This document shows, in pieces, positions 496 to 6,426 of a DNA stretch of 64,000 nucleotides (position 1 is the first letter of the stretch; each line of letters begins with the position of its first letter). The translations under genes were made by a program, and so were the position numbers. The notes below the pieces were generated by a model, which saw only the letters and a list, made by a program, of their open reading frames with translations, searched no databases and had not been told where the DNA came from. Source of the stretch: Woeseiaceae bacterium (lineage in GTDB: Bacteria > Pseudomonadota > Gammaproteobacteria > Steroidobacterales > Woeseiaceae); contig JASJBG010000001.1 of the NCBI GenBank assembly GCA_030066625.1, positions 28,381 through 92,380 of the forward strand, in the 5' to 3' direction.

Positions 496-584
496 GGCGT
501 GATTTTACACACCGAATGTGACGCAGCTTAAGTTTTCAGGCCCGTTTCCTTGTGCCCGCGCCCCTCGGGGCTAGACTCGGGCGC

Positions 585-1127
585 ATGAGTCCAACCAGCA
601 CCGAGGTCTTCGAACGCGTCGTGCGGCCGCACTTCGACCGGCTGTACCGGCTGGCGTGGCGCCTCGCCGGTAGCAAGGCCGAGGCCGAGGACCTGTTCCA
701 GGAGGTGCTGATCAAGGCCTTCGCGAAGCTCGACGAGCTCGTGACCATCGACGAACCGGGCTCATGGCTGAGCCGCGTGATGTACAACCTGTTCATCGAC
801 GAGCGGCGCCGCTTCAGCCGCCGGCGGCTGGTCATCGTCGAGGAAGGGCAGTTGCCGGGCGACGGCCTGGCCGCCTTCGAGGGCGGACCGACGCCCACCG
901 GCGACCACGAACGCCTCGAGAAATTCGAGCGTCTCGAACGGGCGCTCGACCAGCTCAGCGTCGAACATCGCATCATCGTGCTGCTGCACGACACCGAGGG
1001 CTACAAGCTGACGGAGATTGAAGCGCTGACGGGCACGCCCGTTGGAACGATAAAGTCGCGGCTGCACCGGGCGCGCGCCAGATTACGTCAAATACTCACC
1101 GACGATGGAACCCTTTCGTCGCCATGA
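585..1127 (+). CDS. RNA polymerase sigma factor, ECF subfamily
   Basis: A 180-residue sigma-70 family factor. Region 2 is at residues ~10-75 (LYRLAWRLAG, AEDLFQEVLIKAF, VMYNLFIDERRR) and region 4 at ~120-175 (LDQLSVEHRIIVLL, GTIKSRLHRARARL), with no region 1 or 3, which defines the ECF group. I chose ATG at 585 over the track's GTG at 552 because the extra 11 residues precede the usual ECF start. The next gene, 28 bp downstream, encodes a single-pass membrane protein of the kind that acts as its anti-sigma factor. The sigma factor should direct RNA polymerase to its own operon and other envelope genes; the signal is unknown. Confidence 0.9.
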   Translation: MSPTSTEVFERVVRPHFDRLYRLAWRLAGSKAEAEDLFQEVLIKAFAKLDELVTIDEPGSWLSRVMYNLFIDERRRFSRRRLVIVEEGQLPGDGLAAFEGGPTPTGDHERLEKFERLERALDQLSVEHRIIVLLHDTEGYKLTEIEALTGTPVGTIKSRLHRARARLRQILTDDGTLSSP

Positions 1128-1155
1128 ACGTGTAAGGGGCAAGAGAGCTCACACG

Positions 1156-1698
1156 ATGACTGACAACACGCAAAACACGGACGCCATGGAGCAGGAGCTC
1201 CTGGCATTGCTAAAGGACTACCCGATGCCCGACGCCACCGCAGGATTCTACGACCAGGCCTTGGTCCGCGCCGCCCACGAGGGCACGCGCCGACAGCGGA
1301 ATCGCTGGATCATGACCGGTTTCGGTGGCGCGGTAGCAGCAGGTCTCGCGATCCTCATTGTAAGCGGGACGTTCTTCCAGGCACCCGAAGCACCGGTCGC
1401 CGACCCCGGTATCCCCGGCGTGACGATCGCGCTCGCGGAGCCGCGCACCGTGAATCTCGTGTTTTCGTCAGCCGAGGCGCTCGATACGGCAACGCTGACC
1501 GTATCGCTGCCCCCAGGCATCGAGCTCGCCGGCTTCCCGGGCCAGAGTGAAGTGACCTGGGAGACGAGCCTCGCCGAGGGCAGGAACCTGCTGCCGCTCA
1601 AGCTGCTCGCCGTAACGCCGGCAGGGGGCGAAGTCCTCGCCCGCCTCGAACATGATGATCGTGACCGGACCTTCCGGTTGCGTGTGGACGTGAGTTAG
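1156..1698 (+). CDS. Putative membrane anti-sigma factor with periplasmic beta domain
   Basis: 180 residues from ATG 1156 (track start 1105 lies inside the sigma gene; a purine-rich AAGGGGCAAGAGAG precedes ATG 1156). Residues 1-50 are a soluble N-terminus, then one membrane helix (WIMTGFGGAVAAGLAILIV, ~50-72), then a ~105-residue extracytoplasmic part rich in predicted beta strands (TLTVSLPPGIELAGFPGQ). There is no HxxxCxxC zinc-binding anti-sigma motif. The assignment rests on topology and on its place directly behind an ECF sigma gene; I infer that it sequesters the sigma factor at the inner membrane and releases it on an envelope signal. Confidence 0.6.
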   Translation: MTDNTQNTDAMEQELLALLKDYPMPDATAGFYDQALVRAAHEGTRRQRNRWIMTGFGGAVAAGLAILIVSGTFFQAPEAPVADPGIPGVTIALAEPRTVNLVFSSAEALDTATLTVSLPPGIELAGFPGQSEVTWETSLAEGRNLLPLKLLAVTPAGGEVLARLEHDDRDRTFRLRVDVS

Positions 1699-1745: not shown

Positions 1746-2393
1746 ATGAAAGAATTCAATATTTTCCTGGCAACGCTGGTACTGACCGCGTTTGCGATGT
1801 ACCCGGCCTCTGCGCTGGCCGACGATCTCGATGATCTCGAGGTCACGATGGAAGTCTTCGACAACGAGGCGAGCTTCGACTCCGATATCGCCGAGATGCG
1901 TGGTCCCGAGGACGACGAACTCGACGACGTCGACGAGGACGACGAAGACGATCGAGAAGACGGCGATGCCGACGATGCTCGCGACGAAGAGGACGACGAG
2001 GACGAGCGCGACGAAGAAGAGTCGGCCGATATCGACGACGAGATGCGCGACGAAGAACGTGACGACGACTTCGAGGACGAGCTCGAAGAAGAGTCCGAGG
2101 AAGACTTCGACGGCGACGAGGACTTCCGTGAGGACGAAGAACTCGACGATAGCGAAGACGATTTCGAGGAAGAGGTCGGCGAAGACCTCGACCTGGAAGA
2201 CGAGTTTGACGATCGCGAAGAGGAAGAAGACGACATGGGCGACGACGATCTCGGCGATGACGAGATGGAAAGCGACATGGACGATTCCGCTGAAAGCGTC
2301 GACGAGCTCGAAGACGAGATGGACGACGATGGGTCGGACGACGACGGTGACGACCTCGGGGATGACGAGAGCAGCGACAGCGCTGACATCTAA
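1746..2393 (+). CDS. Exported polyacidic (Asp/Glu-rich) protein of unknown function
   Basis: Starts MKEFNIFLATLVLTAFAMYPASALA, a convincing Sec signal peptide with an ALA cleavage site, after GGAG at good spacing. By hand count about 119 of the 190 remaining residues are Asp or Glu (~63%), with almost no Lys, no Cys and hardly any hydrophobic residues, so the mature protein should be disordered and strongly anionic. It is third in a run behind an ECF sigma gene and its membrane partner, 47 bp from the latter, and is followed by two hairpins, so it is probably the structural output of that regulon. Cation (Ca2+ or metal) buffering, a matrix component or a biomineral nucleator are possibilities only. 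Confidence 0.8.
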   Translation: MKEFNIFLATLVLTAFAMYPASALADDLDDLEVTMEVFDNEASFDSDIAEMRGPEDDELDDVDEDDEDDREDGDADDARDEEDDEDERDEEESADIDDEMRDEERDDDFEDELEEESEEDFDGDEDFREDEELDDSEDDFEEEVGEDLDLEDEFDDREEEEDDMGDDDLGDDEMESDMDDSAESVDELEDEMDDDGSDDDGDDLGDDESSDSADI

Positions 2394-2467: not shown

Positions 2468-2500
2468 ATCCCCCGTCAGCTCGCGCTTTCGGGGGATTTT
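2468..2500 (+). terminator. Probable intrinsic terminator
   Basis: ATCCCCCG pairs with CGGGGGAT around a 14-nt loop and runs into TTTTC. It is the second hairpin after the acidic-protein gene and should separate the ECF operon from the TPR-barrel gene. Confidence 0.55.
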
Positions 2501-2573
2501 CTTGCCGGAATCCGGGACTGCGTCATAGTTTTTTCGGGCGCAGACGGTAGTCTTCAAAATCTGACATAACGCA

Positions 2574-4205
2574 TTGTTGTTAATCGCTTGGGGCCGAACG
2601 ATTTGCACGAACGCTAAAATTACCGCGTGGGTCGCGACCTGCCTGCTGTCGCTGCTTTCCGGGGCGGCATTCGCCATGACCGGCCCGCAGTATTTCGACG
2701 ATGGCAACCGCCTGTTTCGCGACGACCTGTACCACGCCGCGCTGCTGCGCTACCGGCAGGCCGCGGAGGCGGGCTACGACACGCCGCTGTTGCACTACAA
2801 CACCGGCGTCGCACACTACAAGGCCGGCCAGCATATCCGCGCGCGCGAGTCCCTGGAGAAGGCTCTTGCGTCGCCGACGCTCAGGGTCGTCACCACGTAC
2901 AACCTGGGCCTGAACGCCTACGCCCTCGGCGACCGCGACGAGGCGCTGAAGTGGTTTCGACTCGCCCGTGACCAGCAGCAGAACGAGCAGATCTCGAAAT
3001 ACGCCCGCATCGCTATCTCACGCATCCAGCGCGTGGAGATCGAGAACGACCCGATCATTCGTGAAGCGCGCAGACGCGAGAAGGAACGCCAGTTCGCGAA
3101 CCTCGAACTGCGTGCCCGTGTGAGCTTCGGCAACGACAGCAACGTATTTCGCAGCCCCAGCGAACCCTACATTGACTTCGCGGACCCGGCGCAGCCGACC
3201 GTCGTCCCGGTGGTGCAGTCGGGCGCCTTCATGCCCGTCTCCATGAGCGCCAAGTACCAGGTCAACGCGTATGAGAAAGAAGGTTTCTTCGGTGCCTACC
3301 GGCTCGCGGGCCGCTATTACCAGGACAAGGAGCTCGACAACGCCAACGAGTTCCTGCACGAACTGAGCTTCGGCAGCGAGTATCGCAATCGCGACGAGGA
3401 AAACGAGCGCGATCGACGCGTTTACTCGGCGTTTCGGATTGCGCAAAACGACGAAGTCTATTTCGACCCGGATGACGGCGGCTCGCGCGTCGTTAACGGT
3501 ACCGACATCTCGGATCGCTTCAAGTACGTTCGCTACGGACCCGAACTGACCTTCCGGCAGTCTTACCGGCGTTTCGCGCTGGGCCTGAAGGTCAAGGGCC
3601 AGCTGTGGGACTACGAAGAGGTCGAGGAGGTCCCTGCCTACGATCACGAGTACTTCCTTTTTGGCGGCTACGGCCAGTACAAGTTCACCCGCACGTCGCT
3701 GCTGCGATTCTCGGCGGACCGCTACACCCGCCGCTACTCGGACCGTCGCGCGCGTGACCTCGACGGCACGATCGACATCGACAACGACAACCTGCGCCTC
3801 GACTACCTCGACCTGGGCGTGACCGCGCGACAGCGCATCACGGACACGATGTGGTTCGGCGTCGAATATCAGCGCCGCGAGCGGACCGACCAATTCGTTG
3901 GTTACAACGACTACACGCGTGACAGCTACGGCGGCGAGATCCACCTGGGTCTCGGCGGGCGCTTCGACCTGGAAGCCTCCGGCTACTACCGCCTGTACAA
4001 CTTCCCGAATGCGTTCGCGTTCAACAACCCGGTCATCGGTGCAAAAACGCTCGAGTCCGTCGACATCAACGTGATCGCCACCTACCGGATGACCCGCAGC
4101 CTGTACCTCGTCTTCGAGGCCTCCGTGGACGAACGCGCGTCGACCGATACGCGCATCCAGTACGACCGCAACCAGTACGTTTTGGGAGTCCGTTGGGAGC
4201 CCTAG
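2574..4205 (+). CDS. TPR-repeat outer-membrane beta-barrel protein (Slam/DUF560-like architecture)
   Basis: About 540 residues. A signal peptide (core WVATCLLSLLSGAAFA) is followed by ~130 residues of TPR-like helical pairs (YFDDGNRLFRDDLYHAALLRY, LLHYNTGVAHYKAGQHIRARESL, YNLGLNAYALGDRDEALKWF). From ~residue 180, starting ARVSFGNDSNVF, come alternating beta strands with many aromatic residues to the C-terminus (YVLGVRWEP). TPR domain plus C-terminal barrel is the layout of surface-lipoprotein assembly modifiers (Slam), which move proteins to the cell surface; that is by architecture only. The start is uncertain: the frame offers TTG at 2574 and 2577 but no ATG or GTG before the signal peptide, and no clear ribosome site. 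Confidence 0.65.
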   Translation: MLLIAWGRTICTNAKITAWVATCLLSLLSGAAFAMTGPQYFDDGNRLFRDDLYHAALLRYRQAAEAGYDTPLLHYNTGVAHYKAGQHIRARESLEKALASPTLRVVTTYNLGLNAYALGDRDEALKWFRLARDQQQNEQISKYARIAISRIQRVEIENDPIIREARRREKERQFANLELRARVSFGNDSNVFRSPSEPYIDFADPAQPTVVPVVQSGAFMPVSMSAKYQVNAYEKEGFFGAYRLAGRYYQDKELDNANEFLHELSFGSEYRNRDEENERDRRVYSAFRIAQNDEVYFDPDDGGSRVVNGTDISDRFKYVRYGPELTFRQSYRRFALGLKVKGQLWDYEEVEEVPAYDHEYFLFGGYGQYKFTRTSLLRFSADRYTRRYSDRRARDLDGTIDIDNDNLRLDYLDLGVTARQRITDTMWFGVEYQRRERTDQFVGYNDYTRDSYGGEIHLGLGGRFDLEASGYYRLYNFPNAFAFNNPVIGAKTLESVDINVIATYRMTRSLYLVFEASVDERASTDTRIQYDRNQYVLGVRWEP

Positions 4206-4254
4206 AACCTGTTAGAATCGCGGGCTTCGCCACACCCTGGTCCGCGTTTCTTAC

Positions 4255-6426
4255 ATGGACGTCACGCCGATACTCGAACACCTGAACGACGCGCAGCGCG
4301 AGGCCGTCACGGCCCCCGACCAGCCGACGCTCGTGATTGCAGGTGCGGGCAGCGGCAAGACCCGGGTACTCGTTCACCGCGCCGCCTGGCTCATCGACGT
4401 CGAAGGCGTCAGCCCGAATGCCCTTTTGGCTGTAACCTTCACCAACAAAGCCGCGGCCGAGATGCGCAGCCGCATCGAGAACCTGCTCGGCATTCCCGTC
4501 CGGCACCTCTGGATCGGCACCTTTCACGGTCTTGCGCACCGGCTGCTCAGGCGCCACTGGCGCGAGGCGAAGCTGCCGCAGAACTTCCAGATCATCGATT
4601 CCGACGACCAGCAGCGACTGATCAAGCGGCTGCTGAGGAACCTGGGCGAGGACGACGGTCGCTGGCCGCCTCGCGAGATCCAGTGGTTCATCAACGCGCA
4701 GAAGGACGAAGGCCTGCGCCCGGAGCACATGGACGACGAGAACGACTCGGACCGGCGACAGAGGATCGTTTTCTACAAGGAATACCAGGCGCTGTGCGAG
4801 CGCGGCGGCCTCGTCGACTTCGCTGAGCTCCTGCTGCGCGCCCACGAGCTCTGGCGCGACAATCCCGAGCTGCTCGCGCACTACCAGCGACGCTTCCAGC
4901 ACCTGCTGGTCGACGAGTTCCAGGACACCAACGCGATCCAGTATGCCTGGCTGCGGCTCCTGGCCGGCAAGGACGGCATTCCCTTCGTCGTCGGCGACGA
5001 CGACCAGTCGATCTACCGCTGGCGGGGCGCCCGCGTCGAGCATATTCACCAATTCCAGAAGGACTTCCCGGGCACGGCAATCGTCAAACTCGAACAGAAC
5101 TACCGTTCGACGGCGACGATCCTCAATGCCGCCAACGCCGTCATTGCGAACAACAGCGCCCGCATGGGCAAGAACCTGTGGACCGAGGGCGCCGAGGGCG
5201 AGCCGATCAAGGTCTATGCCGCGTATAACGAGCGCGACGAAGCCGACTTCGTGATCGGTCGCCTGAAAGACTGGATCGCCCAGGGCAACGCGCGCGCCGA
5301 CGCCGCCATCCTGTATCGCTCCAACGCGCAGTCGCGAGTGCTCGAGGAAGGCCTCATCAACAGCGGCATCCCCTATCGCGTATACGGCGGCCTGCGGTTC
5401 TTCGAGCGCGCCGAGATCAAGGACGCGCTCGCCTACCTGCGGCTCATCGCCAGCCGTGACGACGACGCCTCGTTCGAGCGCGTCGTCAACAAGCCGACCC
5501 GCGGCATCGGTGCGCGCACGGTTGAGCTGATGCGCGAATACGCCCGCGCCAACAGCTGTTCGCTGTGGCGGGCCGCCGCCGCGCTGGCCAGCGACGAGCT
5601 CACCAGCCGGGCGGCCAACGCCGTGCTGGCGTTCATCCACCTGGTCGAGCGCATGGCAAACGAGGTTCGCGACCTCGAGCTCGAGGACAAGGTCGATCAC
5701 GTCATTCATGCCAGCGGGCTCATCGAGTTCTTCAAGAAGGACAAAGGCGAGAAAGGCGAGACCCGGGTCGAGAACCTGCTCGAACTCGTCAGCGCGGCAA
5801 AGAGCTTCGAGCCGGACCCGAACGAGGAGATGCCGCCGCTCGATGAATTTTTGTCGCACGCGGCGCTCGAGGCCGGCGAAGGACAGGCCGGCGCCTGGGA
5901 GGACTGTGTCCAGCTCATGACGATGCACTCCGCGAAAGGGCTGGAGTTTCCGCTCGTATTCCTGTCGGGCATGGAGGACGGCCTGTTCCCGCACCAGCGT
6001 TCCATCATGGACCCGAACGGCCTCGAGGAAGAGCGCCGGCTGTGCTACGTCGGCATCACGCGGGCGAAACAGACGCTGTACGTCACCTACGCCGAGCAGC
6101 GGCGGCTGCACGGCATGGACAACTACTCCGTGCCGTCCCGGTTCATCAACGAGATTCCGGCCGAATACGTAGAAGAAGTCCGACCGCGCGTACAGGTGTC
6201 GCGGCCGATGCCGGCGAGACAGCGCTATACCGGCCGACGCACGCCGGTCGACACCGGCGAGGACCTGGGCGTTCGCCTCGGCCAGCGGGTTCGGCACCAG
6301 AAATTCGGCGACGGCGTCGTGCTCAACTGCGAGGGTCAGGGCGCGCACATGCAGGTGCACGTCAATTTTGAGACAGAGGGCACGAAAATCCTCGTCTACC
6401 GATATGCGAATCTCGAACTGATGTAA
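4255..6426 (+). CDS. uvrD: DNA helicase II (UvrD), superfamily 1A 3'-5' helicase
   Basis: 723 residues, normal for UvrD. Helicase motifs appear in order: Walker A AGAGSGKT (~30), Ia AVTFTNKAAAEM, Ib IGTFHGLAHR, II VDEFQDTN, III VGDDDQSIYRWRGA, IV LEQNYRS, V MTMHSAKGLEFPLVFL, VI CYVGITRAK. The C-terminal ~50 residues (GQRVRHQKFGDGVVL) form the Tudor-like domain used to contact RNA polymerase. It unwinds nicked DNA in mismatch and nucleotide excision repair and clears RecA filaments and stalled polymerase. Rep and PcrA are close relatives, but the C-terminal domain and length favour UvrD. The large minus-strand ORF across it is a shadow. Confidence 0.95.
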   Translation: MDVTPILEHLNDAQREAVTAPDQPTLVIAGAGSGKTRVLVHRAAWLIDVEGVSPNALLAVTFTNKAAAEMRSRIENLLGIPVRHLWIGTFHGLAHRLLRRHWREAKLPQNFQIIDSDDQQRLIKRLLRNLGEDDGRWPPREIQWFINAQKDEGLRPEHMDDENDSDRRQRIVFYKEYQALCERGGLVDFAELLLRAHELWRDNPELLAHYQRRFQHLLVDEFQDTNAIQYAWLRLLAGKDGIPFVVGDDDQSIYRWRGARVEHIHQFQKDFPGTAIVKLEQNYRSTATILNAANAVIANNSARMGKNLWTEGAEGEPIKVYAAYNERDEADFVIGRLKDWIAQGNARADAAILYRSNAQSRVLEEGLINSGIPYRVYGGLRFFERAEIKDALAYLRLIASRDDDASFERVVNKPTRGIGARTVELMREYARANSCSLWRAAAALASDELTSRAANAVLAFIHLVERMANEVRDLELEDKVDHVIHASGLIEFFKKDKGEKGETRVENLLELVSAAKSFEPDPNEEMPPLDEFLSHAALEAGEGQAGAWEDCVQLMTMHSAKGLEFPLVFLSGMEDGLFPHQRSIMDPNGLEEERRLCYVGITRAKQTLYVTYAEQRRLHGMDNYSVPSRFINEIPAEYVEEVRPRVQVSRPMPARQRYTGRRTPVDTGEDLGVRLGQRVRHQKFGDGVVLNCEGQGAHMQVHVNFETEGTKILVYRYANLELM

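Follow-up and report, generated by a model that had tools for sequence, protein, structure and literature searches.

Few kinds of stress switch are as common in bacteria as ECF systems, and many of their outputs are unknown. In the window (the whole 64,000-nucleotide stretch of DNA analysed here, from a marine sediment bacterium of the family Woeseiaceae), a secreted protein made up largely of Asp and Glu is encoded downstream of genes for an ECF sigma factor and a membrane anti-sigma-like protein, raising the question of what such a protein is for and which partners it has. The first-pass annotation took it for the dedicated product of the sigma factor, buffering divalent cations or seeding mineral. 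The window opens on the end of a methyltransferase-like gene (minus strand), followed by a plus-strand four-gene module and then by uvrD, trkA and trkH. The module runs in the order sigma factor, anti-sigma with an Ig-like periplasmic domain, secreted low-complexity protein (gene 3) and TPR plus beta-barrel outer-membrane protein (OMP). The last of these genes (2574–4205), an ECF promoter and an N-terminal motif in gene 3 are additions to the earlier picture.

The sigma, anti-sigma and acidic genes

The sigma gene (585–1127, plus strand) encodes a protein of 180 residues, and this short length, together with Pfam matches to regions 2 and 4 only (Sigma70_r2, 2e-13; Sigma70_r4_2, 2e-14), identifies it as an ECF factor. 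Its dN/dS was 0.06–0.14 (about 0.09 in close pairs), and dN/dS indicated purifying selection on all four module genes. The anti-sigma-like protein (1156–1698, plus strand; also 180 residues) has no Pfam match in the window and was recognised from alignments, an AF2 model, Foldseek and a group profile. One membrane segment, at about residues 52–74, could be read from the sequence; the AF2 model, of low confidence in the membrane part, displays two short cytoplasmic helices and a periplasmic domain of Ig-like form, and Foldseek likewise found this domain to resemble Ig-like domains.

Over its cytoplasmic part, the group profile matches RsiW (E = 8.5e-4). As in RsiW-SigW-type ECF/ZAS pairs, a two-domain ECF sigma factor thus adjoins an anti-sigma with a single membrane segment, and relatives of the window protein carry the zinc motif HxxxCxxC: it is present in 48 of 49 cassettes of non-window type and in more distant window-type loci. 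Alignment showed this motif, which marks ZAS proteins, to be missing from the window anti-sigma and its near relatives. Without the zinc-finger part, its control of the sigma factor may be altered. In three cases (G027:C16, G034:C26 and G813:C4) the anti-sigma profile continues upstream of the present start across stop codons, a pattern suggestive of recent decay of the zinc-finger part within the window lineage. The module further departs from RsiW-SigW-type pairs in that its Ig-like periplasmic domain belongs to no Pfam family and its output includes a low-complexity polyelectrolyte.

The acidic gene (1746–2393, plus strand) lies directly behind these two genes, as first annotated. Composition and orthologue comparison indicate a secreted polyacidic protein of 215 residues, which begins with a Sec-type signal peptide of 25 residues (1746–1820) ending in ALA. 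By eye, the predicted cleavage falls between MKEFNIFLATLVLTAFAMYPASALA and DD, and both the signal and the sequence ADD are kept in orthologues. The mature protein contains 71 D and 48 E in 190 residues (119; 62.6%), in exact agreement with the first-pass count, along with 8 K/R and no Cys. It opens with a conserved motif (DDLDDLEVTMEVFD...IAEMRGP; 1821–1916), also found in gene 3 of non-window-type cassettes, and its tail is predicted from composition to be disordered. The window gene matched no Pfam, NCBIfam or PADLOC model, and gene 3 of three other loci matched nothing in Pfam; a defence system was rejected, there being no PADLOC match.

Low-complexity coding sequence may be an artefact of simple-sequence DNA, which yields long open reading frames in other frames as well, and the acidic frame could in principle make no product. 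This reading is scarcely credible, as frame, signal peptide, motif and acidity are all kept under purifying selection. In close pairs, dN/dS of the acidic gene was 0.10–0.25, 64% of substitutions fell at codon position 3, and D-to-E or E-to-D replacements accounted for 112 of 359 amino-acid changes. Directly downstream of the orthologous anti-sigma gene, 26 of 27 loci (at least 50% identity) have an acidic gene by a D/E cut-off of 30%; the gene in that place at the remaining locus has 28% D/E. A 263-residue Ser-rich open reading frame on the minus strand (1598–2389) is a mechanical mirror of the D/E codons and no gene, and is seen opposite the acidic gene at other loci too.

A predicted ECF promoter with a rigid spacer

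We searched blindly for paired words upstream of the sigma gene in non-window-type cassettes, and recovered GGAA(CC)...CGTG in 14 loci; shuffled sequences gave it in 6 at most. GGAA(CC)...CGTG is the textbook ECF promoter pattern. At this sigma-upstream position 20 of 48 non-window-type regions have at least 9 of 10 matches (0.9 expected), while no excess of the pattern was found between gene 3 and the OMP gene in the non-window-type cassettes scored.

A genome scan revealed a second copy of the site directly before the anti-sigma gene. In the window, this predicted promoter, GGAACC-N16-CGTGTA (1107–1134, plus strand; GGAACCCTTTCGTCGCCATGAACGTGTA), matches at 10 of 10 positions, lies partly within the 3′ end of the sigma gene and reads into the anti-sigma and acidic genes. 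Its −35 part overlaps sigma codons, and its −10 lies after the sigma stop codon (1125–1127), so coding constraint alone does not explain its conservation. Among 64 related loci, chiefly of window type, the site before the anti-sigma gene is perfect in 52, with 0.1 expected, and the spacer is exactly 16 in all 58 loci scoring at least 9. Its strict form (GGAACCNTTT-N12-CGTGT) has a single match in the whole 3.88-Mb genome, at this locus. A GGAAC-type −35 with a rigid spacer is a further likeness to RsiW-SigW-type pairs and to published ECF promoters, such as the GGAAYA with rigid spacer of the M. tuberculosis ECF factor sigma-H (PMC6411747).

Upstream of the sigma gene itself, window-type loci have a different element: a canonical ECF promoter was rejected there (1 of 55 loci, 0.75 expected), and this position instead holds a conserved promoter-like element with sigma-70-like spacing, CCTTG-N19-TASACTC (548–580, plus strand). 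It scores 10 or 11 of 11 in 25 of 55 window-type loci; shuffled sequences gave about 0.3. The strict element occurs in 5 of 36 genomes searched.

Elsewhere in the genus, too, most strict ECF-promoter matches fall at this locus. Among the genes preceded by the few others are DUF4382-like lipoproteins (L292 and L293; recognised by eye), which also adjoin paralogous cassettes at three loci (L033, L036 and L040) and are a possible second regulon member. One further strict match (L300) precedes a secreted low-complexity protein with IEKPEVEKP-like repeats, followed by a second signal-bearing open reading frame, in a genome that carries the cassette.

A perfect, rigidly spaced and genome-unique promoter makes the acidic gene well backed, at the level of sequence, as a main output of the ECF factor, and in this respect the first-pass proposal is supported. 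The idea of a dedicated output leaves out the OMP, which is kept with the acidic gene where sigma and anti-sigma have been lost (see below). Transcription of the acidic gene independently of the sigma factor, named at first pass as counting against the proposal, must occur in these relatives without a sigma gene; in the window it need not.

Since the ECF promoter is followed first by the anti-sigma gene and gene 3, a median of 12 nt apart, gene 3 might encode a periplasmic feedback or sensor subunit that binds and tunes the Ig-like domain of the anti-sigma, with the OMP as the sensed client. CpxP and RseB act in this way in their own systems, and the short strand-like motif conserved in gene 3 could add to a beta-sandwich. 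We regard this arrangement as unlikely, as it does not explain why gene 3 is retained after at least eight losses of sigma and anti-sigma, described next.

An outer-membrane protein retained with the acidic gene

The fourth gene (2574–4205, plus strand; start uncertain, TTG as called) encodes an OMP of 543 residues with Pfam matches to TPR and, weakly, BBP2_2. Its AF2 model (mean pLDDT 90.4) combines a TPR domain, presumably periplasmic, with a barrel of 16 strands. A periplasmic TPR domain and a 16-stranded barrel are also the architecture of the BcsC/PgaA exporters (the PgaA barrel has 16 strands; PMC8406197), and the nearest folds include E. coli BcsC, the best PDB match, as well as AlgE and PelBC. 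The OMP might then be an exopolysaccharide export pore of the BcsC, PgaA or AlgE type, gated or guarded by gene 3. That seems very doubtful: the match to BcsC is loose (TM about 0.35) and therefore reflects architecture rather than homology, the barrel is without strong sequence similarity, its partner is a protein gene, and no glycosyltransferase or polysaccharide synthase adjoins it in the window, where its neighbours are uvrD, trkA, trkH and the upstream methyltransferase-like gene (uvrD and trkA being neighbours in related loci as well).

Two other known systems share part of this arrangement. In type XI secretion (Slam/NilB, DUF560), a TPR plus barrel OMP is likewise encoded beside a Sec-exported protein; however, the window OMP is modelled with 16 strands rather than 14, its partner is of low complexity and without a TbpB-type domain, and neither it nor five other cassette OMPs matched DUF560/SlipAM in Pfam at E up to 1. 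On domain content and strand number, we therefore did not assign the module to T11SS. FecI-FecR-FecA signalling also brings together an ECF sigma factor, a membrane anti-sigma and an OMP, but the window OMP contains TPR and is not a TonB-dependent receptor, with only TPR and BBP2_2, and no receptor domain of that type, found in it by Pfam.

Between the acidic and OMP genes lies an intrinsic terminator (TCCCCC-loop-GGGGGATTTT; 2469–2500, plus strand), which is conserved in an alignment of 58 loci and matched by a regular expression in 44 of 73 regions. It is followed by a conserved element, GTCATAGTTTT...CTGACATAAC (2522–2569, plus strand), present in 40 of 73 loci; 11 of 36 genomes contain one strict site each, and the reversed control gave 0. 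This element is probably the OMP gene's own promoter or operator. Identity with a Pho box was rejected, the half-sites being about 38–40 nt apart and not 11. Two loci without a sigma gene, L108 and L112, retain the element, and the terminator stands between it and the acidic gene; expression of the OMP therefore appears independent of this ECF factor here, and the pair is not strictly co-transcribed in the window lineage. At two other loci (L180 and L040), genes 3 and 4 overlap or abut.

The two genes are nevertheless kept together. Eight loci with uninterrupted contigs lack sigma and anti-sigma, and the acidic gene still precedes the OMP gene there; on the OMP tree, these losses require at least eight separate changes, with the acidic gene and OMP retained throughout. 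An anti-sigma remnant is still recognisable in one case (L126, E = 0.004). The genomes of the two sigma-less loci with the OMP element, G019 (matched to L108 through that element) and G008 (matched likewise to L112; 64% complete), contain neither an anti-sigma match nor a strict ECF promoter match. No OMP gene without an acidic gene was found among the loci of this group that have enough upstream sequence. Gene 3 and its motif thus outlast sigma and anti-sigma repeatedly, which argues for a role without them. The motif also persists where no OMP was found (L200 and L205) and beside a barrel without TPR (L193 and L196), so the TPR domain cannot be the only partner of gene 3.

We also considered whether the charges of tail and OMP are matched. 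In the window OMP, strand residues predicted by alternation to face inward comprise 28 K/R and 16 D/E (net +12), and the raw data from 42 non-window-type cassettes correlated tail charge with that of the TPR domain (rho −0.60). The anti-sigma control also correlated with tail charge (−0.42, raw), and the relation was lost under independent contrasts (r −0.21, p 0.09); charge matching was dropped.

The motif shared by gene 3 and a proposed role

The search for the sigma, anti-sigma and acidic triad in other genomes, proposed at first pass, found it as part of a wider four-gene module. Of 60 related genomes, 31 have a match to the anti-sigma gene. Window-type Woeseiaceae loci keep the order sigma, anti-sigma, acidic gene, TPR-barrel, uvrD, trkA as far as their contigs reach. 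Related genomes also hold paralogous cassettes of the same order, with DSED repeats (type B) or moderately charged tails (type C). The anti-sigma profile retrieves full-length relatives in many families of Gammaproteobacteria, the one class to which all genomes listed in our phylum-wide survey belong. All four genes are present in 44 of the 49 non-window-type cassettes surveyed (sigma 49, HxxxCxxC 48, gene 3 49, TPR-OMP 44), whose class-survey genomes span 24 families; of the five without a TPR-OMP, two have a barrel without TPR, one sits at the end of its contig, and no OMP was found near the other two. The module's named records include Microbulbifer hainanensis, a Woeseia sp. MAG and an Aquisalimonas MAG. 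In Microbulbifer hainanensis (L140) the sigma gene occupies 3066–3662, the anti-sigma gene 3652–4272 and the acidic gene 4323–4856, with the OMP gene from 4941. Genes may be hidden in MAG assemblies, and regulation was read from sequence throughout.

What gene 3 has in common across these lineages is a short N-terminal motif, DLDVTMEVxD...I..xIELP, and not acidity. Typically, D-L-D-V-T-M-x-V-x-D right after the signal peptide is followed, 5–15 residues on, by I-x-x-x-I-E-L-P; the second half reads EMRGP in the window lineage. The D/E fraction of the whole protein ranges from 0.27 to 0.67 in 63 loci and from 0.05 to 0.46 in the 49 non-window-type cassettes, and the estimated mature net charge from −111 in the window to +14 (L200). 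With motif and gene position unchanged, tails in other lineages are of mixed charge, Q/P-rich or even net-positive. The locus at the positive extreme, where a K/R-rich tail reverses the usual charge, has no TPR-OMP nearby.

This variation bears on the suggestion that the acidic tail itself binds Ca2+, Mg2+ or metals, as a buffer or a mineral-nucleating polyanion. The charge of the window protein, the prevalence of D-E exchange as the commonest amino-acid change and an acidic motif near the C-terminus of window-type proteins (DFEDGEDVDDDEFD; strict pattern in 37 of 58 orthologues) are consistent with it; as tails elsewhere are often not acidic, cation binding is unlikely as a family-wide role, and this part of the first-pass proposal is not supported as a general function. 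We consider this explanation quite unlikely overall, although a derived role could remain in Woeseiaceae, where cation binding may matter. An EF-hand identity for the C-terminal motif was rejected by eye on its mismatched spacing.

We instead propose, with belief and doubt about evenly weighed, that the locus is an ECF-regulated envelope module, in which a sigma-induced secreted polyelectrolyte works with the neighbouring OMP. The sigma factor would be held by the inner-membrane anti-sigma and, once released, would transcribe the anti-sigma gene from GGAACC-N16-CGTGTA, providing negative feedback. The same transcription would yield the Sec-exported, disordered polyelectrolyte, composed of the conserved N-terminal motif and a low-complexity tail whose acidity is extreme in this lineage. 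The adjacent TPR plus 16-stranded barrel OMP, separately transcribed here, would be its partner, most likely capturing the acidic protein and either exporting it or exposing the tail on the outside. That the OMP is probably involved in such export or display is suggested by co-retention, gene coupling and fold, and the cell may thus acquire a charged surface or extracellular layer when its envelope is stressed.

More tentatively, and with somewhat more doubt than belief, these cassettes may represent a widespread and so far undescribed system of the outer membrane under ECF control. In it, a TPR plus barrel protein would export or display a disordered polyelectrolyte that is recognised by a short N-terminal motif, leaving tail chemistry free to differ between lineages. 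We found no published description of the module in the open-licence literature searched. As Microbulbifer hainanensis is cultured and has the full gene set, the module is open to testing. In at least 24 families of Gammaproteobacteria, it joins a third gene without a match in Pfam or NCBIfam to a promoter and a motif that are both defined and to a modelled OMP partner; if the OMP does export the low-complexity protein, this would constitute a protein-export route undescribed in that literature.
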